A stretch of 64,000 nt of DNA, from NCBI GenBank assembly GCA_949361645.1, contig OX442425.1:2286171-2350170 (forward strand), in the 5' to 3' direction. Below are positions 3,173 through 51,299 of the stretch, piece by piece. Under the pieces are notes generated by a model. That model worked only from the letters and a program-made list of their open reading frames with translations. It made no database searches and was not told the DNA's origin. Origin of the DNA: Spongilla lacustris. Taxonomy: Eukaryota; Porifera; Demospongiae; Spongillida; Spongillidae. The translations under genes were made by a program, and so were the position numbers. Positions within the stretch are counted from its first letter, which is position 1. Every line of letters begins with the position of its first letter.

Positions 3173-3256
3173 ATGTTTAGTATGCTGGTACTCTTTGCTA
3201 CTCTCTTCGCGCTGTCGGCCTTCGCCGTTGATGCTCGGTCTGTAAAGATGAAGGAT
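3173..3256 (+). CDS. Micro-exon gene copy 1, exon 1 (signal peptide)
   Basis: ATG at 3173 opens 28 codons starting MFSMLVLFATLFALSAFAVD, a strongly hydrophobic run ending in small residues (AFA/AVDA), as in a secretory signal peptide with cleavage after about residue 18-21. The exon ends GAT at a consensus donor GTGAGT (3257). The length is 84 nt, so the exon exits in phase 0, matching the phase-0 24-nt exon at 4050. The intervening intron is ~790 bp and holds a poly-G run near 3579-3604. What is seen is the open frame and donor; secretion is inferred. I found no equivalent exon 1 near copy 2. Joining this exon to the array downstream is an inference from strand, distance and phase. Confidence 0.7.
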
Positions 3257-4049
3257 GTGAGTCCGTTTTATCACTTTGGTTTGTACAATAATTGTTAATC
3301 AGTGTCTAAAGTCCTGCTCCGCTGTACACCGCGGGGTATAAAGTTAAACATAGTTTCCTGTACGTATTATTCAGTAAATCACCGCGTAACTCCGCTGTGG
3401 TCGACGAGTTGCTGTAAGAACAGTGAAAGGATTAAAGCTTCGGTACTTATACAACATGGCAAAAAGTCAAACAGAAACTGCGCTACAATGCTTAAACGGT
3501 GTAAAAATGCATGTGCGGAGCACGCCCATGCAGGATATTACACATTAAGTCCAGTAATCGGTAACCTATACTTTTGAAAGGGGGGGGGGGGGGGGGGGGG
3601 GGGGAGGCGGATAGATATAACCGTTTGGGCACAATTTATATTCCTGCAAACAAACTGGTGCTAAATGTATTATATTAGTTGCTTGCGTTAATTTGTATGC
3701 ACGATAATTTTATCAGTTATTAAATGTTTTCAATGATGAGCCAGTACTGTACAGTTGTAGGCTGCGAAACAGCCAACACGCCCAGGTTGACGTTGGCCGT
3801 TCAGTCCTGTGATAAATTTCTGACGGCTAGCTAAGTACGCGTCTTTGTGAAGATTGCATCTTCGTGCCGTGTCATTATGCATTCTGACTTGCCTTGGCTT
3901 GTCTTTGCATGCGGTAAACAGACGCGCCGCTAACTCTAACTGAAACGGAAATTATTTAGACGATTTCCGTATTAATTATTAACTGTTGCAGGGCGCATGG
4001 CATTTGCGGCGTATACCGTTGTAGTTTATTATTACTATTATTCTTCCAG

Positions 4050-4996
4050 CAAGTTAACTATCAGGGATTGTGCGTAAGTTCTTGGTCAGGTACAGCATGC
4101 TGTTGTATCCTTCATCTTGTACGCTTCTCGCAATCGTCACCATGACAGAATGTAAGTCATGTGATTGTATGATGGATATATTTTCACTTCAGTTCTATTA
4201 ATTTTTACTTTCAGTGCGTAAGTTTTCTTTATAGTAGTGGATTTCTTATTTACCGATGGTGCATGCATGCGTGCGTTTTTGTCTCTTGTGACAATATTTT
4301 ATGGCTCTGTTCCTGATCCTCGAATTGCAGTACGTTGTAAGTATTCATCGTTATGAAGCAGAATGTCGTAATACATTTTTTTCATCACTATTCCACACAT
4401 TTTAAGAACGTAAGTAATTGGTTTGCATAGTGGTGCACTTATTTCAGTGTTCAATCAATGTAAACTTGCAAATTTCTTAGTGCGTAAGTGATTTTGGTAC
4501 AAATAATAGATTTTTTGTCACCTCATCTCTTCCTTCTAGAACGTAAGTCCACACGGCGAATATATCTCAATGTACTGATTATTATTAAGCTCATTACGCC
4601 ATTAACAAACGTTTAGTGGGTATGTATTTCAGTATTTTTTATACTGTACATGAGATGAATAAATATATTTTCTCCATATTGACCACAATGTTGAACTCAG
4701 ACTGTAAGTCAGTTAGACAATCAAATGCATTGCGTATCAAATTTTTATTGATCCATCTAGTGGGTAAGAAACATTCAAATTACTATATGCTACATGTTTC
4801 ACTTCTAAAAATGTTTATTTATCACACAACATATTCCAGCAAGTAAGGCAGTTGACACACTATCATTTTCTGGTGATCTATTTGATTTTGATTTCTTAAA
4901 TTCTATTATTACAGTTTGTAAGTACACAAATGCAATAATATTCACATCACTAATGATGGCCACACAACAATGCTGCTATGCGTTCTATTCAAGCAA
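4050..4996 (+). CDS. Micro-exon array, copy 1 (ten 3-nt exons plus 24-, 6- and 36-nt exons)
   Basis: Acceptor/donor pairs bracket tiny phase-0 exons. 4050-4073 (24 nt, QVNYQGLC; TTCTTCCAG acceptor, GTAAGT donor); 4149-4151 AAT; 4215-4217 TGC; 4331-4336 TACGTT; 4407-4409 AAC; 4448-4483 (36 nt); 4540-4542 AAC; 4617-4619 TGG; 4701-4703 ACT; 4761-4763 TGG; 4840-4842 CAA; 4915-4917 TTT; 4994-4996 CAA. Introns are mostly 38-113 bp and their sequences are dissimilar, so this is not a simple tandem repeat. Nearly every donor is GTAAGT-like (exceptions GTATGT at 4620, GTAAGA, GTAAGG). The 36-nt exon carries an in-frame TAG at 4478-4480; alternatively it splits into 12 nt plus 3 nt around a 21-nt GT-AG segment. 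The array is cut off by the assembly gap at 5103. Order and sizes match copy 2 exactly. No family is recognised; transcript evidence would be decisive. Confidence 0.72.
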
Positions 4997-5102: not shown

Positions 5103-5302
5103 NNNNNNNNNNNNNNNNNNNNNNNNNNNNNNNNNNNNNNNNNNNNNNNNNNNNNNNNNNNNNNNNNNNNNNNNNNNNNNNNNNNNNNNNNNNNNNNNNN
5201 NNNNNNNNNNNNNNNNNNNNNNNNNNNNNNNNNNNNNNNNNNNNNNNNNNNNNNNNNNNNNNNNNNNNNNNNNNNNNNNNNNNNNNNNNNNNNNNNNNNN
5301 NN
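5103..5302. other. Assembly gap (200 N)
   Basis: A run of exactly 200 undetermined bases, probably a placeholder. Alignment between the two micro-exon copies stops exactly at its left edge (after GTATTCCATTGG), so the 3' part of copy 1 is missing or misassembled here. Confidence 1.
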
Positions 5303-23455: not shown

Positions 23456-24165
23456 TATATTCCCTATACCATTTATTGTCATCTGTAGGGGTGTATGGTT
23501 GAATAATGGAATAGCCCAATGATTCTCGCTGATACTACTGGTATAATGCCATAATTTGTCATGGATTATCTATTACCTTTGTGTGGTGTCCAGACTCAAG
23601 TATGTCACAGCTGTGACATAATTACAAAAGTGTATACAATACAAAAGTGTCTGCTCATCAGTGCTACTCACTTATATTTGACTATATGGAATGCTGTTGC
23701 GGTGAAGTTAAAAAAAAAAACAACATTGGGAGCATGGAAGGGAACAAGGGGTGGAGTAATAACTAGGTGACCTGCACCTGGTACGTCTGCCATAATCTCG
23801 GGAATATCTTGGACCTGGTCTGCGTGTACATGTAGGCCTACATACATGTGTGTGCAGTGTGCATGTGTGTGTGTGTGTATGTATGTGTGTGAGTGTTTGT
23901 GTATGTACATGTATGTATGTGTGTGTGCTTATGGTCCTCCATGTTCTTTCCAGACCTGCTGAGTGATGAGCACCGGACTATTGAGCTTCTGCTTCAACTC
24001 TCGTGTATGTTTTGATTCGTTAACTCTCTAAAATTACATCCATGATTGAAAAGGTTATACAGGGTATCTTACAGTCCTCTATGTTATAATTAAATGGTAT
24101 GTTAATAGTGGTCCAATTCAAATTCTGCTAAGTATAATGTTGAACCTGAAAGCCTTCTAATCAGT

Positions 24166-35868: not shown

Positions 35869-37097
35869 CTAGCTAGCCCCAGTGTATCCATCGCCATCCT
35901 GTTCGTGGACTTCACAATCAGTCCACAGCTGGAACGGACGGCCCAGCAAGTAATGTCTGAATTGCTTCATTCCGTACACCAATGCCAGACACTCTCGTTG
36001 GATGACACTATAGTTGGCTTCAGATTTGGATAGCACCCGACTAACATATCCAATCACATAGCCATCTTGCTGCAGTATAGCACCTAACCCAACTGCATTT
36101 GTTTGTAGCATAAATTGACTAGCTCCTTTGTCAAACCTTGGGTACATCAAAACAGGAGCACTTGTCAATTTTGTCTTCATGGTTTGAAAAGCTGTCTCAC
36201 ACTCAGTAGTCCAGCAAAATGGGTTGTCCTACTGTGTCAGTTTGTGCAGAGGAGCTGCAATGTCCGAAAAGTGACAGATGAACTTCCAATAATAGGAAGC
36301 CAAACCTAAGAATTGCCGTACCTCTGTAGCACTGCTTGGTGTTGGCCATTCTACCACTGCTTTCACTTTTGGAGTTACACCGGCTGCACAGAAGACATGT
36401 CCCAGATATGTCACCTGTGGCATTCCTATTTGACATTTTCTCCATCTCAGTGTCAGTCCTGCTGTCTTCAACCGTGAGAAGATTGAGGGTAGGTGCTTCT
36501 TGTGCTCTTCTTCACTGGCTGAGTGAATCAGTACGTCCTCAAGACAGGTGGTCACAAAAGGCAGCCCTCTGGTAATTTTGTCCATTAGCCTCTGAAAAGA
36601 GCTAGGTGCCCCACACAGTCCAAAAGGCATCCTCGTAAACTTAAATGATCCCATTCCTGGCCCAGGAGAGAAAGCTGTCCTCTCTGTCATTGACATCTAC
36701 TGGAAGCTGCCAATATCCACTCTGTAGATCCAGCTTGCTGAATATTGCAGCTCCTGCCAGCCTGTCTTAGACTTCTTCCATCAGTGGAAGTGCATGGGTA
36801 TGCATCCTTGATGGTGAGCTTGTTTATCTCACAATAGTCCACACATATCCTTATCTCTCCAGAGTTCTTCCTCACATATACAGCAGGGGCTAACCAGGGG
36901 CTGCTACTCTCCACAATAATCCCTTTTTGCAATATTTTTTGGATCTGTTCTTCCACTTCATCACGGAAATGGGCTGGGATTCTTCGAGCTGGAATTCGTA
37001 CAGGTGATCCAGTGGTGTTGATCTGGTGTGAAGCAACCAATGTTGTACCAGGTAGTGTGATGAACAGGTTCTGGTACTCATTTACTACTGTTGCCAA
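35869..37097 (-). pseudogene. Gypsy pol fragment (RT to RNase H), minus strand
   Basis: Reading 37097 to 35869 it shows the RT entry (RIPARRIPAHFRDEVEEQIQ, KGIIVESSSPWLAPAVYVRK), a frame break near 36690-36770, RT core (FTRMPFGLCGAPSSFQRLMD) and RNase H start (FMLQTNAVGLGAILQQDGY, VIQRECLALVYGMKQFRHYL). The catalytic YxDD box reads CLEDV, so the RT site is mutated. It is truncated at both ends and lies head-to-head with the next fragment. Confidence 0.8.
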
Positions 37098-43106: not shown

Positions 43107-43130
43107 CAATATAGCAATATAGGACCGTGC
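43107..43130 (+). CDS. Micro-exon gene copy 2, 24-nt exon
   Basis: Acceptor AATTCCTTCCAG, 24 nt in phase 0 reading QYSNIGPC, donor GTAAGT at 43131. The same length, phase and Gln/Gly/Cys positions occur as in the copy 1 exon (QVNYQGLC, 4050-4073), but five of eight residues differ. The following intron is split by a 2.1-kb foldback insertion. Confidence 0.75.
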
Positions 43131-43204
43131 GTAAGTTTTTGGTATCACCTTACATGCGGCTTGCTGTTGTATCATTCATCTTGTACACTTCTCGCGATCG
43201 TCAC

Positions 43205-45321
43205 TAGCCTCGTCCCCAGGCCCTGTTTTATTAAAGTTACGGGGGGGAAAAACAGGGCCTGGTAGACACTGCCAGGGTCGAAGCGCGCATGCGCTAGTTT
43301 GTCCCAGAATACCTGGGGAAACCGTAATTTCCTTTTGGAAACCATTCCGTATAGTCGTCTGATTTCGCGATGGCGTATTCTCTTGAGTTCCGAGAAGCGG
43401 TGCCTTATTCTTTATCGTGTCTTAACGAACGAAATCAGGCGAGCAGCATACGCCATCGCAAAATCAGACCAGTATACGGAATGGTTTCCAAAAGGAAATT
43501 ACGGTTACCCCAGGTATTTTGGGACAAACTAGGGCATTTTCCTAGTTGAGGTTCCGTCATTAGTATTCATTGCTACTACTCGAGGTTTTCCTATCGCTCT
43601 GTGACTCATGAATATAATTAGCACTCCGATGGATATAATTCAAGAGGTCAAAAATAATAGAGGCCAAATCTGGTTGGAGCGTTGAAAACTCATCGCTAAC
43701 AGGGTAAAGCTTCTTGCCTCAGCTCAACCTCACCCGCCTCCGAAATCCCCCCCCCCCCCCCCCCCTTTACCGGTACCGCCGCCGCCTCACCTAGTCTGAC
43801 GTAGCCATACCCTCCGCAAAGCGCGAGGGTATGGCTACGTCAGACTGCGCCTCACCCGCGCCTCTCCCCGCCTATTTTAACTACGTGCACCAATAAGGGC
43901 AACTAACGCAGTCCTTGGTAATGCTATGTTGTACACCCTCACCTTAATCAGCAGCCGTGCCGCATACGAAAATATCGCGTAGGTCAGGGGCTCAGGGCGC
44001 CGAGCTCAGCCGCTATATCCACTAATGGCTAACAAAAACTATAGTAGGCACTAGCCTAACCATGCGCTCAACAGCATCTGTATAGTAGCTACTGTAATAT
44101 GTACATGGATCGCAGCGGATCGTTCACTGTAGACTATTTAGTTGAAACGAACACGAGTTAACTCACGTGACGTATTACATACACCATTACGATCGTAGCT
44201 ATTTAAAAAATAAATAAATAATTCCCTACATGTATAGATAATTCTCTTTCAATTCCCAGGGTCGGACGCAGGGAGGGGGGGCAAAGGGTAGAGGGTAAGG
44301 GAAAGGGGGTGGGGGCGTCGCCCCCTCCCGCTCCAGCTAAGGGATATATATGGGGGAGCGCTGTAGCTCCCCCACTGGGGTCGTTCCAGCCGTTCACTTT
44401 CTCTCCAGCACGCTTCAGCTCAGGTTAACGGTTACAGGTTAACATAATAGTCTTATTATTTTTCATTGATCGCGATGCACAAGTGATATGGATTAACAAG
44501 TACATGTAATCCATATCACTAGTACTGACTACTGTGCATCGCGATCAATGAAAGGAATTAAAAGACTCGACGTAGAATTATTGAAAACGGCCCAGCCAAA
44601 ATACATGTAGCCGGCCTAGCCGTAGGGGAATTATTTTATTAATAGCTAAAGTATGTAATACGTCACGTGAGTTAACTCGTGTTCGTTTCAACTAAATAGT
44701 CTATACTGAACGATCCGCTTGCGATCCATGTGAATATAAGGCTTACAGTAGCTAGAGATGCTGTTGAGCACACGGTTAGGCTAGTACCTACTATAGTTTT
44801 TGTTAGCCATTAGTGGAGCAAAATATAGCGGCTGAGCTCGGCGCCCTGACCTACGCGATATGTTCGTATGCGGCACGGCTGCTGATTAAGGTGAGGGTGT
44901 ACAACATAGCATTACCAAGGACTGCGTTAGTTGCCCTTATTGGTGCACGTAGTTAAAATAGGCGGGGAGAGGCGTGGGTGAGGCGGCGGCGGTACCGGTG
45001 AAGGGGGGGGGGGGGGGGAATTTCGGTGGCGGGTGAGGTTGAGCTGAGGCAAGAAGCTTTGGCCTGTTAGCGATGAGTTTTCAACGCTCAAACCAGATTT
45101 GGCCTCTATTATTTTTGACCTCTGGAATTATATCCATCGGAGTGCTAATTATATTCATGAGTCACAGAGCGATAGGAAAACCTTGAATCCGTAGTAGTAG
45201 CAATGAATACTAATGACGGAACCTCAACTAGGAAAATGCCCAAACTAGCGCATGCGCGCTTCGACCCTGGCAGTGTCTACTAGGCCCTGCTTTAATAAAA
45301 CAGGGCCTGGGGACGAGGCTA
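43205..45321. mobile_element. 2.1-kb foldback element in an intron of micro-exon copy 2
   Basis: Tips TAGCCTCGTCCCCAGGCCCTG (43205 on) and its complement (to 45321) with ~1-kb inverted arms and a turn near 44495. GATCGTCAC occurs immediately before (43196-43204) and after (45322-45330), a 9-bp target duplication; copy 1 has the single uninterrupted site (AATCGTCAC, 4132-4140). The left arm holds extra insertions absent from the right: a 234-bp palindrome (43298-43531) and a 56-bp hairpin (43792-43847). A GC-rich hAT-end-like piece lies near the turn (44263-44400). No protein is encoded. Confidence 0.9.
43792..43847. mobile_element. 56-bp hairpin MITE nested in the foldback element
   Basis: TAGTCTGACGTAGCCATACC pairs with GGTATGGCTACGTCAGACT(G). 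CGCCTCACC lies on both sides (43783-43791 and 43848-43856). The opposite arm of the host palindrome lacks it, which shows the empty site. Confidence 0.8.
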
Positions 45322-45338
45322 GATCGTCACCATAACAG

Positions 45339-46213
45339 AATGTAAGTTATGCGCCTGTTTGATGGATATATTCACTTAAGTTCTATTGCCTTTTACTTTC
45401 AGTGCGTAAGTTTTGTATAAGTACATGTAGTGGATTTTGTGCGTCATTTCTCTTGTGACAATATTTTGTGGCTCCTAATTTAACGCTAATTGCACCTGAT
45501 CCTCGAATTGCAGTACACTGTAAGTATTTATCATTATGAAACAAAGCAATGTAGTAATAATTTTTAATTCCTCGCTATATTCCATTCATTAAGAACGTAA
45601 GTAATCCGTTTGTAAATGTATAGTGGTGCACTTATTTCAGTGTTCAATCAACGTAAACTTGCAAATTGCTCAGTGTGTAAGTTATTTTGATACAATAAAT
45701 TAATAAATTTTTGACACCTCATCTCTTCCTTCTAGGACGTAAGTCCAATATATCTCAATGTACTGATTATTATATTAAGCTCATAACGTCATTATCGTCT
45801 CAACAAACATTTAGCGGGTATGGATTACAGTATTTTTAATACTGTACATGTAATGGATAAATATGTATTTTTTTTTCCCATTGACCACAATGTTGAACTC
45901 AGAATGTAAGTTAGACAATCAAATTCATTGCATATTAAATTTTACTGATTTATTCCATGTCGCATATATTGATGCGTTTAGTGGGTAAGTAACAGACAAA
46001 TGTATGATATATGTTAAATGCTTCACTTCTAAAAATGTTTATTTCCACACAACGTATTCCAGCAAGTAAGCCAGTTGACATGCTGTCATTTGATCTATTT
46101 GATTTTGATTTCTTAAATTCTATTAATGCAGTATGTAAGTACACAAATACAATAATATTTACATTATTAATGACGGACATACAACACTGCTGCTATACAT
46201 TCTATTCAAGCAA
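45339..46213 (+). CDS. Micro-exon array, copy 2, part homologous to copy 1
   Basis: All exons are in phase 0: 45339-45341 AAT; 45403-45405 TGC; 45514-45519 TACACT; 45594-45596 AAC; 45641-45676 (36 nt, CSINVNLQIAQC, open, unlike copy 1); 45736-45738 GAC; 45815-45817 CGG; 45903-45905 AAT; 45982-45984 TGG; 46063-46065 CAA; 46132-46134 TAT; 46211-46213 CAA. Each has AG immediately before and GTAAGT or near-consensus immediately after (GTATGG after 45817). Order, sizes and most codons equal copy 1. Differences from copy 1 at V/T, N/D, W/R, T/N and F/Y alter the amino acid, while AG and GT are kept. The encoded product would be a short Cys- and Asn-rich secreted peptide. Confidence 0.75.
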
Positions 46214-46346
46214 GTAAGTCACTTCTTTCTTACTGATTACTTGTTTGAATATATATCATTCATATTTCACCATTATTTGGCGGGATTTACTACTTATGTA
46301 TTCCACTACACAACAATGCAATATTGTCTTATCGCACATGAAATAG

Positions 46347-47408
46347 AATGTAAGTAAAGATGATTGTTTGCATACATCTACATGTATTTAATTCAATCTG
46401 CATGTATATATGGCATTATTGATATGATTATGTAAAATGCCTACCAATTCGATTGGTTAAACATTGAGATCATTAATAGTACAACCTTGTCTTTTCTCAT
46501 AAATAATCATATTCATTTGAGTAATTATTTTTGAGCAATTCATTTGATCTTTTTTCACTAGCATGTAAGTTCAGCTCCTCAATAGCAATGTAATAAATCT
46601 CGGTGCTTCCATTTCGGTATTACATACAGGTGGTAAGTATTACAGTGTAACAACCACAAGTTTAATGGTATATTCTATATTTCAATATGTTTTACTTTGG
46701 TGTTCATTGAACTGAATGCAAATGCAACAGTCGGTAAGTACAGGACAATCAGATACCTTGCATAATTCGTGCCAATACATCATTTGACCTTTTTCTCTAC
46801 AGAAGGTAATTACAATGACTAAGCCGGAATTACTTGAAGTATAGCTCAACAATGTTTGATCTTTCCAAAACCATTTCAATAATCAATGGACCTCATAGTT
46901 TGTGAGTTATGTTAATAATTATCTCCACATTTAACATTGTGATTATATTTCATTCAGGATGTGAGTGATTTAAATGCATGTACAGAGAAATGACTACTAA
47001 TTATTGCCATACATTCTCGACTGATTGAAATGTCATACAACCAGATTGTAAGTGATGATACCAAATTAACCCCTTTGTTATTTCATACACAACTGTCATC
47101 AAACAATGTACTATTGCAGAAGGCAAGTTACGTGTCAATTATGGGTGCCTTTGACGACCATCATTTCATCCAACAATCAATATCATTCATATGTGTAGTG
47201 TGTAAGTTACAGGATTAATTTTATGAATTTTCAGAAATTAACTGATTCTTCTTTTCATATGTAGTGCATAAGTTTTTAATTTCAACATTGTACACAAGGT
47301 ATCTTATTACATGTCTCTGATACATAGTCAGTAAGTTACCAAGTGTATATACTGGTTGGCGCTACTGAGCTTACTTCATCTCCTGTCACAACTTTTTAGT
47401 GCCCAAGA
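46347..47408 (+). CDS. Micro-exon array, copy 2, 3' extension
   Basis: Further single-codon exons: 46347-46349 AAT; 46562-46564 CAT; 46630-46632 GTG; 46731-46733 TCG; 46803-46805 AAG; 46899-46901 TTT; 46958-46960 GAT; 47045-47047 ATT; 47120-47122 AAG (donor GCAAGT); 47199-47201 TGT; 47265-47267 TGC (donor ATAAGT, non-canonical); 47328-47330 TCA; then 47400-47408 TGCCCAAGA with a weak GTTAGT donor. Introns are 60-212 bp. If the last donor is not used, the exon from 47400 reaches TAA at 47424-47426 after CPRVSKSL. This region has no counterpart in copy 1 because of the gap. Confidence 0.6.
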
Positions 47409-47474
47409 GTTAGTAAATCTTTGTAAAAGTAATTATTGCTTGAACTATCCTGTATGCATACATGGTGAATACAG

Positions 47475-47823
47475 AGGGCCAAAATGAATGCAGTTCATTA
47501 TGAAGATGAAGAACAAGCAGGTAGGCCTTTATTCACGTGCTTTAAAGTCTGCCACATACTTCAGTAAAAATTCACTGTACCCCAGTACTGTATAATTTTC
47601 ATGAACCATAATGTGTATCCGTTCTGATATGGAAGAAACATACTTCCCTGCATAACATTTATTACGCTAGCTAGTATTGCAGACCCTTAAAAAATTCACT
47701 AACCTTATAATATTGAAGTTTACCTTTATGCAGCAGCTTTTCAATTCCTGGTTGTCTTTTCGTTCAGGTGTTGATTTAGAACAGCTCGCAAATGTTGAAG
47801 AACAGCTTAACCAATCTGACTGA
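47475..47823 (+). CDS. Possible 3' exons of the micro-exon gene (or a separate small gene)
   Basis: Exon 47475-47520 (46 nt, RAKMNAVHYEDEEQA, donor GTAGGC) and exon 47768-47823 (acceptor TTTTCGTTCAG, reading VDLEQLANVEEQLNQSD then TGA) join in frame across a 247-bp intron. The first enters in phase 0, as required after the 9-nt exon at 47400, and the intron between them would be 66 bp. The C-terminal part is acidic. The internal ATG at 47484 could instead start an independent small protein. The acceptor before 47475 is weak. Confidence 0.4.
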
Positions 47824-49440: not shown

Positions 49441-50900
49441 GGAGTAGGAGTCATTTCAGTACAGATGAGGAAAGAGGGTTACCAAAGATGAATGGAGTGG
49501 TATCACTGGTTAGTGGTTTTTGGCACTAAGGAATGGTGGTGCCTGGTACTTCTGAGCATTGTCACTCCCATACAGCTAGCCTTACTCTTCAGACCTGGAC
49601 ACCTGAAAGGGGCTTTAAACCACATATAGCAAAACCCCCACTATGGGGTCTTAAGTCACAAAAATCACCAAAACCGGCAAGGTGATCTTGTCCCAGGCAT
49701 CATACATGTATATACATGTATACAGGAGACTGGTATGGAACTGCATTACAGAGAAAGCATCAAACAGACAGTTTATATTTCTACAGACAAGGCAAGTAGA
49801 GCATGATGGGCTACTATTACACATGGTACCAAGATCAGTATTGATCTGACCAATGATGCTTCTCCAGGTAATTTAGCACTGCAAATAATAGTCCAAATGT
49901 TCATCCGCTAAGCAACGCAGTACCATGCAGACATACCAGTAAATGAATATTGTGTTGCCAAATCATTTTAGCGACTCCCAAATGCAGATTATAATTAGAT
50001 GTCAATGGAGGCAATCATTTTCAGTACTGTTTTCTATTTTATTAGATAGATTGCTAGTATCTATAGATGAATTAGAAATTGGAACTAAGAATGTCTGGCA
50101 CAACAGATATTGCCATACAAGTAATTACCTTAGCTGGTGAAGTTAGAAGTATTCACCAAAAGAAGTGGCAATACTTAATTCTTATTGCATGAAATGCATT
50201 TCTCACTAATGATCTGGCAAAAATCTCAGGCATGCATCATGGCTTTTTGTGTACATGTAGGTGAACAATTATTTGTTGTGAGGAATTAAATTAATGGCAG
50301 CAATCTGCACAACATCAACTTTGACACATCTTCAGTGGTAGGCAAACTGCAAAGAATTCTACAAGCACATTCAAATTATTTTTGCATAACTCCCGTCATT
50401 TGACAAAAAAGCATATGTATTTACTGAGATATGTAAAGCATTTACAAACATGCACAGCAGAGATCCTAAAGTGGTCCATCAAGACACCAAATCAGCTAAT
50501 ATGATTTTGGGTAATACAATAGGAAAATACATATGGTTTCATCATAATAAAATTTTAATGACATAATTTCTTGTTCGCAGCTAACTTTTTACACAATTGA
50601 TACTTAGAAAACCTTTATCTCCCAATTTCAATTCAGTTATATTAAATTTTTATATCTTGCATAATTATATAATATAATTACAATTATTATTATAATTATG
50701 GTTATGCTTCTATGTAATAGGAGAGTAATCTCTGCCAATGTACATGTGAATAGGAATTCGATAACAAAAATGGAGGTTGAACCAAGACACTTATAATTAG
50801 GTCAAGCAATCCTCATCTGGAAATTATACAAGTGTCCATCAAATCCAGTTTATACATGTAGATCTTAAAAACAATACCTTTAAAGATGCTGAAATAACCC
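49440..50900 (+). repeat. Segmental duplication, copy 2 (partner 19440-21070)
   Basis: Same order and orientation as copy 1, with a truncated MITE (left arm at 49575-49700), a frame-shifted first exon (near 49786-49867) and an open second exon (near 50045-50120). Best described as a decayed duplicate. Confidence 0.85.
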
Positions 50901-51299
50901 ATCTGTGCATAGAGAACAGTTGCTGACATATTCATATTACGATGCGAACAAGTTTGGATGAATCAATGATGATGTGAGAAAAACCTAATTGTCCTGGATG
51001 GATGCTTCTATGTAATAGGAGAGTAATCTCTGCCAATGTACATGTGAATAGGAATTCGATAACAAAAATGGAGGTTGAACCAAGACACTTATAATTAGGT
51101 CAAGCAATCCTCATCTGGAAATTATACAAGTGTCCATCAAATCCAGTTTATACATGTAGATCTTAAAAACAATACCTTTAAAGATGCTGAAATAACCCAT
51201 CTGTGCATAGAGAATAGTTGCTGACATATTCATATTACGATGCGAACAAGTTTGGATGAATCAATGATAATGTGAGAAAAACCTAATTGTCCTGGATGG
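50704..51299. repeat. 298-bp tandem duplication
   Basis: ATGCTTCTATGTAATAGGAG begins both units (50704 and 51002). Only two differences were noticed across the unit (GAACAGTTG/GAATAGTTG and GATGATGTG/GATAATGTG), so it is recent or an assembly artefact. It overlaps the end of the segmental duplication. Confidence 0.9.

Follow-up and report, generated by a model that had tools for sequence, protein, structure and literature searches.

A 64,000-nucleotide stretch of the Spongilla lacustris genome (contig OX442425.1 of assembly GCA_949361645.1, positions 2,286,171 to 2,350,170; the window, whose own numbering we use below) contains two series of predicted exons that are almost all a single codon long. 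We propose that both belong, as diverged copies, to a large family of genes for secreted peptides, whose arrays of one-codon exons would have grown by units of one intron plus one codon. We give this reading a probability of about 0.87. We also think it probable, with less assurance, that a gene family can grow in this way, by one intron and one codon at a time. It would be an expressed minisatellite, each repeat of which is spliced to one amino acid.

We call the two series copy 1 (W1, 3173-4996) and copy 2 (W2, 43107-47823). Genome-wide counts refer to an assembly of 248,560,934 bases in 51 contigs.

One-codon exons in the window

Copy 2 opens with a 24-nt exon, continues through 23 single-codon exons, of which one has a doubtful AT donor, and one two-codon exon, and ends in ordinary 3' exons. 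In order it would encode QYSNIGPC/N/C/YT/N/C/D/R/N/W/Q/Y/Q/N/H/V/S/K/F/D/I/K/C/C/S/CPR, then two ordinary exons that end in ...QLNQSD and a stop. The pattern AG-N3-GT[AG]AG[TC] occurs 19 times on the plus strand of 45311-47500, against a mean of 0.07 and a maximum of 2 in 1000 dinucleotide shuffles. It occurs 0 times on the opposite strand and 0 times in the reversed sequence of that interval. If the exact donor GTAAGT is demanded and spacers of 1 to 60 are tried (45301-47500), a spacer of three nucleotides gives 16 sites and every other spacer at most 2. The number of single-codon exons reaches 23 once weaker donors are admitted. The shuffles and the strand controls rule out a chance origin of these sites and confirm the preliminary description of this DNA, which had reported more than twenty sites of the form AG, three bases, GTAAGT or similar on one strand.

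The same description had given the remaining exons as 24, 6, 36 and 9 nt long, all internal exons as multiples of three, and all donors as GTAAGT or near it. The 24-, 6- and 9-nt exons stand. The 36-nt exon is better read as one codon (45674-45676), the longer reading being ruled out by an in-frame TAG in the aligned stretch of copy 1. Multiples of three hold for the array exons and fail for the exon at 47475-47520, which ends out of phase 0; because it is 46 nt long, the 3' end of copy 2 is not symmetric. Most donors are as described, apart from four weak ones (GTATGG after CGG, GTAATT and GCAAGT each after AAG, and GTTAGT after the 9-nt exon) and the ATAAGT that follows TGC at 47265. A foldback (inverted-repeat) element of about 2 kb, its nested arms 92-100% complementary, lies inside the first intron of copy 2 (43131-45338) and is missing from copy 1.

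Copy 1 has a signal-peptide exon, a 24-nt exon and the series N C YV N C N W T W Q F Q, followed by an N gap (5103-5302). Over about 1 kb the copies share 78% identity, and a DNA search of the genome finds no others. Where the arrays align, all 48 splice-dinucleotide letters compared are equal; the introns are 84.5% and the codon letters 82% identical. The 13 codons compared comprise 7 equal, 1 synonymous, 5 replaced and 0 stops.

Arrays across the genome

A search of the whole genome for three successive units returns 62 + 80 places, against 18 + 11 for the reversed pattern, with simple satellites part of both. Satellites with GTAAGT (e.g. C1:123653-137908 and C19:4554249-4555043) were set aside by eye. 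We fetched 27 loci (L003-L005 and L011-L034), which together with the window copies make 29 regions. L024, with only 2 sites, is left out of the counts; the 28 regions kept amount to 58,320 nt. Among about 100 of the 142 places, six more array places lie outside the fetched set (C11:3093007; C16:1397223 and 1421905; C17:867392, 950321 and 7914721).

On the sense strand of the 28 regions AG-Nk-GTAAGT is found 419 times for k=3, 37 times for k=6, 17 times for k=9 and 13 times for k=12, and 2 or 3 times for each of k=4, 5, 7, 8, 10 and 11. The antisense strand holds one N3 site. Because the loci were chosen by k=3, the fair part of this test is the comparison of 6, 9 and 12 with their neighbours. 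Sites that contain an N3 site account for 5, 3 and 2 of these; the other 32, 14 and 11 are still in excess, and 0 of these 57 un-nested sites have an in-frame stop. An apparent excess at N0 and N1 (12 and 26) was discounted, as it matches, within one, the codons that end or begin in AG.

The triplets themselves look coding. Base composition by position predicts 27.9 stops among the 419, and there is just one, a TGA in L011 (Poisson p ~2e-11). Cysteine (Cys) is the commonest residue with 79 triplets; proline (Pro) and glycine (Gly) come next with 41 each. Over the whole genome AACAATGCAG-Nk-GTAAGT occurs 575 times for k=3, 2 times for k=4 and 16 times for k=6, with 0, 0 and 0 in the reversed-pattern controls, and 100 of the 575 codons include 0 stops. 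Single codons make up 504 of the 574 modelled array exons. There are 8 to 42 array exons in 27 of 28 models and 5 in L028, and the median intron in the arrays is 85 nt.

The array architecture, its coding signal, the family and the unit structure described below can be read directly in the assembly. The idea of the preliminary description, a gene of phase-0 one-codon exons behind a signal peptide, gains support from the paralogue in the window, the exon lengths in multiples of three, the depletion of stops and the arrays on many contigs.

Signal exons in front, terminal exons behind

Signal-peptide exons in phase 0 lie upstream of arrays. A crude scan of the 28 loci gives 23 sense candidates against 1 antisense; 7 of the 23 are one low-complexity stretch of L025, and some candidates are nested. 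Six loci (L003, L004, L014, L018, L019 and L029) have signal exons of the type M-L-K-x-L. A search with the L018 signal exon gives 52 matches, L018 among them, at E values between 1.8e-9 and 1.0. These add nearby signal exons for L012, L025 and L032, and one 5.5 kb upstream of L015.

The check for arrays covered 34 of the 52 matches, and the test of order covers C1, C2 and C3 to 11.36 Mb, with 12 signal matches including the query's own locus. A consensus single-codon exon lies at most 3 kb downstream on the same strand for 9 of the 12, and at most 6.5 kb downstream for 10. Upstream of or opposite to the 12 matches there are 0; the rate at random points is 0.001. Among three more signal matches that we fetched, L038 and L039 lead into arrays. 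The L038 region (G000:C17:563000-565000) shows a signal exon and then single-codon exons for aspartate and glutamate (D seven times, E twice, G-rich after).

At the other end, the last codon exon is AAG (lysine, Lys) in several members, usually after Gly. Amidated precursors of the peptide-hormone or venom type carry a C-terminal Gly-Lys ahead of the stop, and the array ends are mixed in this respect: G-K in L003, L004, L018, L020, L023, L036 and L037, D-K in L005 and L-K in L034. L005, L018, L023, L036 and L037 share a common terminal exon that opens with TGA. After the arrays of L003 and L004 come AG-stop sites that differ in sequence, and in L020 and L034 no terminal exon starting with a stop is seen. 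A stop-first motif drawn from L023, L036 and L037, CAAAGTGANTNTAGGTT, has 12 matches in the genome and 0 in the control. When positions are matched by eye, an array or a signal match on the same strand precedes 10 of the 12 (7 of 9 without the three source loci). The matches at C17:247321 and C21:6491273 have neither array nor signal among the matches listed. All three parts occur together in six places: C1:15.10 Mb, C1:15.15 Mb, C3:15.63 Mb, C12:2.13 Mb, C17:7.66 Mb and C19:5.36 Mb.

A repeat unit of one intron and one codon

A genome search with a consensus intron of 88 nt, drawn up from the three-unit matches, finds at least 797 places, many of them exactly 91 nt apart. In L035, L036 and L037 the usual step is 91 nt, that is, an intron of 88 nt and a codon of 3. 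Intron identity in these three arrays is 0.955, 0.98 and 0.92; the identity of the codon letters is 0.417, 0.643 and 0.438. The triplets vary while the remainder of the repeat is kept alike.

L037 (G000:C12:2129500-2134500) has a signal peptide and then predicted collagen-like PPG repeats from CCT, CCT and GGA exons, ending in GPPGK. L036 repeats PPI. In L037 introns resemble each other more when they follow the same codon (p 0.002), as expected if whole units are copied. For introns that precede the same codon the p values are 0.085 (L035), 0.042 (L036) and 0.397 (L037), and intron similarity by lag in L037 is barely raised at 3 and 6.

Likeness to the consensus intron is high in L034, L023 and L025 and partial in L003, L015 and L012. 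It is absent in W1, W2, L017, L019, L029 and L033, where one-codon exons are still present. L022 has an intron family of its own. We read this gradient as the ageing of arrays, and we infer the descent of the window copies from the 88-nt unit from their architecture and a loosely similar signal peptide. Alternatively, the oldest arrays, window copies included, may be of separate origin.

A run of another composition lies at G000:C2:18332627-18334546 on the minus strand. It has at least 9 consensus single-codon exons, all GGA, which suggests a Gly-run product.

Divergence between paralogues and the predicted products

Five pairs of paralogues differ by 41 replacement and 7 silent codon changes. 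Divergence is greater in the exon letters than in the intron letters of L012/L013 (p 0.002) and L015/L016 (p 0.0002); pooled, p is 7.5e-6 for four pairs (these two, L019/L029 and W1/W2) and 1.7e-5 with L003/L004, in tests that treat letters as independent. None of the aligned Cys triplets is replaced in the five pairs (0 cases). Eight codons are unpaired, four at the edge of the L012 model (one of them Cys) and four in L015 (no Cys).

This pattern is that of putative secreted peptides that diversify around a kept Cys frame. The predicted mature parts are often Cys-rich and, in some of the pairs, change faster than the introns of the same genes with their Cys kept; therefore the products are probably defence, venom-like or recognition peptides. 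Among 10 spliced products Pfam finds no match that passes its cut-off; the product of L030 matches an I2 conotoxin model at chance level (E 0.77). A longer border pattern has no match in GTDB genomes.

How the arrays would grow and be spliced

A complete member would consist of a phase-0 signal-peptide exon, an array of nearly all one-codon exons and a last exon. In several younger members this last exon would open with a stop and directly succeed a Lys exon, itself mostly preceded by Gly. The array would be a present or former tandem repeat, with one short intron (88 nt in young arrays) and one codon as its unit. Duplicating or deleting a unit would add or remove one residue and leave the frame untouched, and the unit copies would later diverge. 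In old arrays, the window pair included, the introns would decay to unrelated sequence while AG, codon and GT persist. Unequal exchange could add, remove or shuffle residues singly, in a frame that cannot break. Skipping any unit would also preserve the frame, as the exons are multiples of three, and combinatorial peptides made by skipping, as the preliminary description proposed, may exist. What is seen in the sequence is variation in evolution: codon exons are repeated within arrays and replaced between paralogues.

Splicing itself, its order, secretion and function are predicted from sequence. A public polyA RNA-seq set (ERR12708738) is cited by PMC12141999. Three nucleotides are probably too few for both splice sites of an exon to be bound simultaneously. 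Definition of the short introns is likely instead: introns would be removed one after another, one codon would be joined per step, and a single transcript would require serial splicing through as many as about 40 one-codon exons. The donor motif, GTAAGTATCA, is lengthened towards the intron, and just 11% of donors have a G as the last exon base; the pooled array acceptors end in AACAATGCAG. Donors would lean on the intron side (GTAAGTAT) instead of on exon bases. GTAAGTAT pairs with the full 5' end of U1 and would therefore compensate for the absent exon bases.

Alternative explanations

The arrays might not be genes at all. If they were non-coding tandem repeats (minisatellites) and their decayed remnants, the splice-like borders would have arisen by chance. 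The youngest arrays are indeed 91-nt tandem repeats, and our patterns also caught simple satellites with GTAAGT. Yet old arrays without a repeat still hold AG, a multiple of three and GT on one strand, and arrays are placed in the correct order between signal exons and stop exons. A mere repeat would also not explain triplets that are almost free of stops and that vary where the rest of the repeat does not. We regard this explanation as extremely improbable. It is also very improbable that real genes leave most of their codon exons out, the AG/GT pairs within a long intron serving for recursive splicing or as decoys, and yield a product of signal peptide plus last exon. Decoy sites would have no need of open triplets, yet a stop occurs in only 1 of the 419, and no aligned Cys triplet is replaced in the five pairs while many other triplets were. 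The terminal exons of several members open with a stop, and skipping would leave little beyond a signal peptide. What speaks for skipping is that the spliceosome has difficulty in defining an exon of 3 nt and that the known cases, in the excerpt of PMC7392893, are isolated exons.

The codon exons could alternatively stem from repeated insertion of a mobile intron (introner) between the codons of an older short gene. One intron sequence at 797 or more places on many contigs fits such an origin, as does the fact that in diverged arrays introns are nearer to the consensus than to one another. But insertion would have to occur in phase 0 at nearly every codon, whereas the PPG and PPI motifs, the GAT or GGA runs and the usual step of 91 nt speak for the duplication of entire units. 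The greater likeness of introns after the same codon also argues for duplication in L037, though not in L035 or L036. We consider this origin unlikely. A likelier possibility, to which we give somewhat less than an even chance, is that the window copies are decaying or broken members of a real family. The ATAAGT after TGC at 47267 and the weak donors fit decay, as do the 2-kb element in the first intron of copy 2, the absence of a convincing signal exon within 23 kb of it, and the gap that cuts copy 1, whose 3' exons are not found. However, 12 shared array exons hold AG and GT in both copies, 0 of 13 codons is a stop, and the 3' exons of copy 2 are open up to a stop. The window pair may be partly decayed; the family itself is sound.

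Against our own explanation, growth of a secreted-peptide family by intron-codon units, a number of observations must be set. Some concern the window. The preliminary description had placed a signal peptide ahead of the micro-exons, and copy 1 has one (3173-3256), but a crude scan of 20001-43106 finds no convincing signal-peptide exon for copy 2 within 23 kb. The candidates from that scan, a low-complexity one at 23846 and a hydrophobic start at 36408 that can be read in two ways, do not resemble the signal exon of copy 1. The second C of 'CC' in copy 2 (TGC, 47265) precedes ATAAGT and has no GT donor. Copy 1 is ended by the assembly gap (200 N, 5103-5302) about 100 bases past its last codon exon, its 3' half is not found, and there may be a mis-join at the gap. 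The introns of W1 and W2 are no longer like the 88-nt unit, and no homologue is found for the copy 2 product (in a version without R and F) or for the L014 precursor.

Others concern the family. Clear signal exons are present in just 9 of the 28 array loci (copy 1 and 8 others). The signal matches C1:29702279 and C1:29740090 have no consensus codon exon nearby, and within 2 kb of the fetched match L040 no clear array is seen. In L035 (p 0.42) and L036 (p 1.0), introns are not more alike when they share the preceding codon. The 41 replacement and 7 silent changes alone are not significant (p 0.08), nor is the faster divergence of exons in L019/L029 (p 0.10) and W1/W2 (p 0.41). L003/L004 have no exon change, with introns 98.4% identical.

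Coordinates and other observations

Table 1. Predicted exons and associated features of the two copies, in window positions
Feature	Position	Strand	Remark
Copy 1 signal-peptide exon	3173..3256	+	MFSMLVLFATLFALSAFAVDARSVKMKD; donor GTGAGT, phase 0
Copy 1 24-nt exon	4050..4073	+	QVNYQGLC
Copy 1 single-codon exon	4149..4151	+	AAT (N)
Copy 1 single-codon exon	4215..4217	+	TGC (C)
Copy 1 two-codon exon	4331..4336	+	TACGTT (YV)
Copy 1 single-codon exon	4407..4409	+	AAC (N)
Copy 1 single-codon exon	4481..4483	+	TGC (C)
Copy 1 single-codon exon	4540..4542	+	AAC (N)
Copy 1 single-codon exon	4617..4619	+	TGG (W); donor GTATGT
Copy 1 single-codon exon	4701..4703	+	ACT (T)
Copy 1 single-codon exon	4761..4763	+	TGG (W)
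Copy 1 single-codon exon	4840..4842	+	CAA (Q)
Copy 1 single-codon exon	4915..4917	+	TTT (F)
Copy 1 single-codon exon	4994..4996	+	CAA (Q); final one before N gap 5103-5302
Copy 2 24-nt exon	43107..43130	+	QYSNIGPC
Copy 2 inverted-repeat (foldback) element	43249..45293	.	in intron after 24-nt exon
Copy 2 single-codon exon	45339..45341	+	AAT (N)
Copy 2 single-codon exon	45403..45405	+	TGC (C)
Copy 2 two-codon exon	45514..45519	+	TACACT (YT)
Copy 2 single-codon exon	45594..45596	+	AAC (N)
Copy 2 single-codon exon	45674..45676	+	TGT (C); stop in copy 1 disfavours 36-nt reading
Copy 2 single-codon exon	45736..45738	+	GAC (D)
Copy 2 single-codon exon	45815..45817	+	CGG (R); weak donor GTATGG
Copy 2 single-codon exon	45903..45905	+	AAT (N)
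Copy 2 single-codon exon	45982..45984	+	TGG (W)
Copy 2 single-codon exon	46063..46065	+	CAA (Q)
Copy 2 single-codon exon	46132..46134	+	TAT (Y)
Copy 2 single-codon exon	46211..46213	+	CAA (Q)
Copy 2 single-codon exon	46347..46349	+	AAT (N)
Copy 2 single-codon exon	46562..46564	+	CAT (H)
Copy 2 single-codon exon	46630..46632	+	GTG (V)
Copy 2 single-codon exon	46731..46733	+	TCG (S)
Copy 2 single-codon exon	46803..46805	+	AAG (K); donor GTAATT
Copy 2 single-codon exon	46899..46901	+	TTT (F); donor GTGAGT; uncertain, following intron 56 nt
Copy 2 single-codon exon	46958..46960	+	GAT (D); donor GTGAGT
Copy 2 single-codon exon	47045..47047	+	ATT (I)
Copy 2 single-codon exon	47120..47122	+	AAG (K); donor GCAAGT
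Copy 2 single-codon exon	47199..47201	+	TGT (C)
Copy 2 triplet, doubtful exon	47265..47267	+	TGC before ATAAGT (no GT)
Copy 2 single-codon exon	47328..47330	+	TCA (S)
Copy 2 9-nt exon	47400..47408	+	TGCCCAAGA (CPR); weak donor GTTAGT
Copy 2 46-nt exon	47475..47520	+	RAKMNAVHYEDEEQA; ends in phase 1
Copy 2 last exon	47768..47823	+	VDLEQLANVEEQLNQSD and stop TGA

Elsewhere in the window, a 298-bp unit is present in two tandem copies of 99% identity (50704-51299). A 163-bp tandem repeat at G000:C1:123653-137908 has AGCTTGTAAGT and the same CTT triplet in each unit among the matches listed; it is a satellite or a monotonous codon array. A contig of 28,044 bases carries a COX1 gene in which TGA codes for Trp. 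Nuclear contigs contain short COX1-like fragments with TGA codons (G000:C15:5407804, C2:11167848, C3:17013411 and C1:5121034), which are probably insertions of mitochondrial DNA.

Implications and comparison with known systems

Provided that splicing joins the codons in the predicted way, gene building is not bounded by the lower limit of exon size, and whole peptides can be assembled from one-codon exons. How the spliceosome handles exons too short to define would become testable with dozens of natural substrates in one animal. Protein evolution would have a mode in which residues serve as cassettes. Growth by intron and codon, if true, would be a previously undescribed route of protein sequence evolution. 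It would also imply a class of sponge secreted peptides that escapes ordinary gene prediction.

In the open-access literature, searched by titles and abstract openings with most subscription journals and bioRxiv outside, we find nothing among the papers listed on one-codon exon arrays, intron-codon tandem units or sponge micro-exon genes. Several known systems share part of the picture. Conotoxin-type families have a conserved signal, a Cys framework and hypervariable mature residues, much as here, but their genes consist of a few ordinary exons where the sponge genes have one-codon exons. Introner elements are many near-identical introns spread through one genome. Near-identical introns also occur here, at sites on many contigs as in an introner family; unlike introners, the sponge copies examined form head-to-tail intron-codon arrays, and those of L035-L037 sit behind signal exons.

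Exons as small as these can be spliced. Isolated 3-nt exons in Drosophila homothorax (hth) and troponin T and in mouse and rat NCAM, and a 1-nt exon in Arabidopsis APC11, are reported singly and not as arrays (PMC7392893; PMC4674806). The hth exons have CAG-exon-GTAAGT or GTGAGT borders, as in the sponge arrays (PMC7392893, excerpt). Aphid bicycle effector genes resemble the sponge family in their fast-evolving secreted products and many small exons; in the excerpted account their internal exons are almost all phase 2 and their proteins carry CYC motifs (PMC9168663). The sponge array exons, in contrast, are multiples of three that follow phase-0 signal exons.

The closest architecture is that of micro-exon genes (MEGs). 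Two generic features of such genes, an N-terminal signal-peptide exon and symmetric internal exons in multiples of three, are both found here. Schistosome MEGs, according to the excerpt of PMC10526429, likewise combine a signal peptide, many tiny exons mostly in multiples of three, secreted variable products and poor automatic annotation. The preliminary description held that their micro-exons are usually 6 nt or longer; the excerpted text agrees (6-81 bp, mostly 15 bp), whereas the abstract gives 3-81 bp (PMC10526429). Their introns measure 100-5000 bp in that excerpt. In the sponge, 504 of 574 array exons are 3 nt long and the median intron is 85 nt, outside the exon and intron sizes of schistosome MEGs, and in young arrays the intron lies within the tandem unit. 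We liken the two by architecture alone and claim no sequence relation; as the phylum differs, the sponge genes are not filed as members. The architecture is filed as an extreme variant of micro-exon genes, and growth by an intron-plus-codon repeat may merit a separate class.

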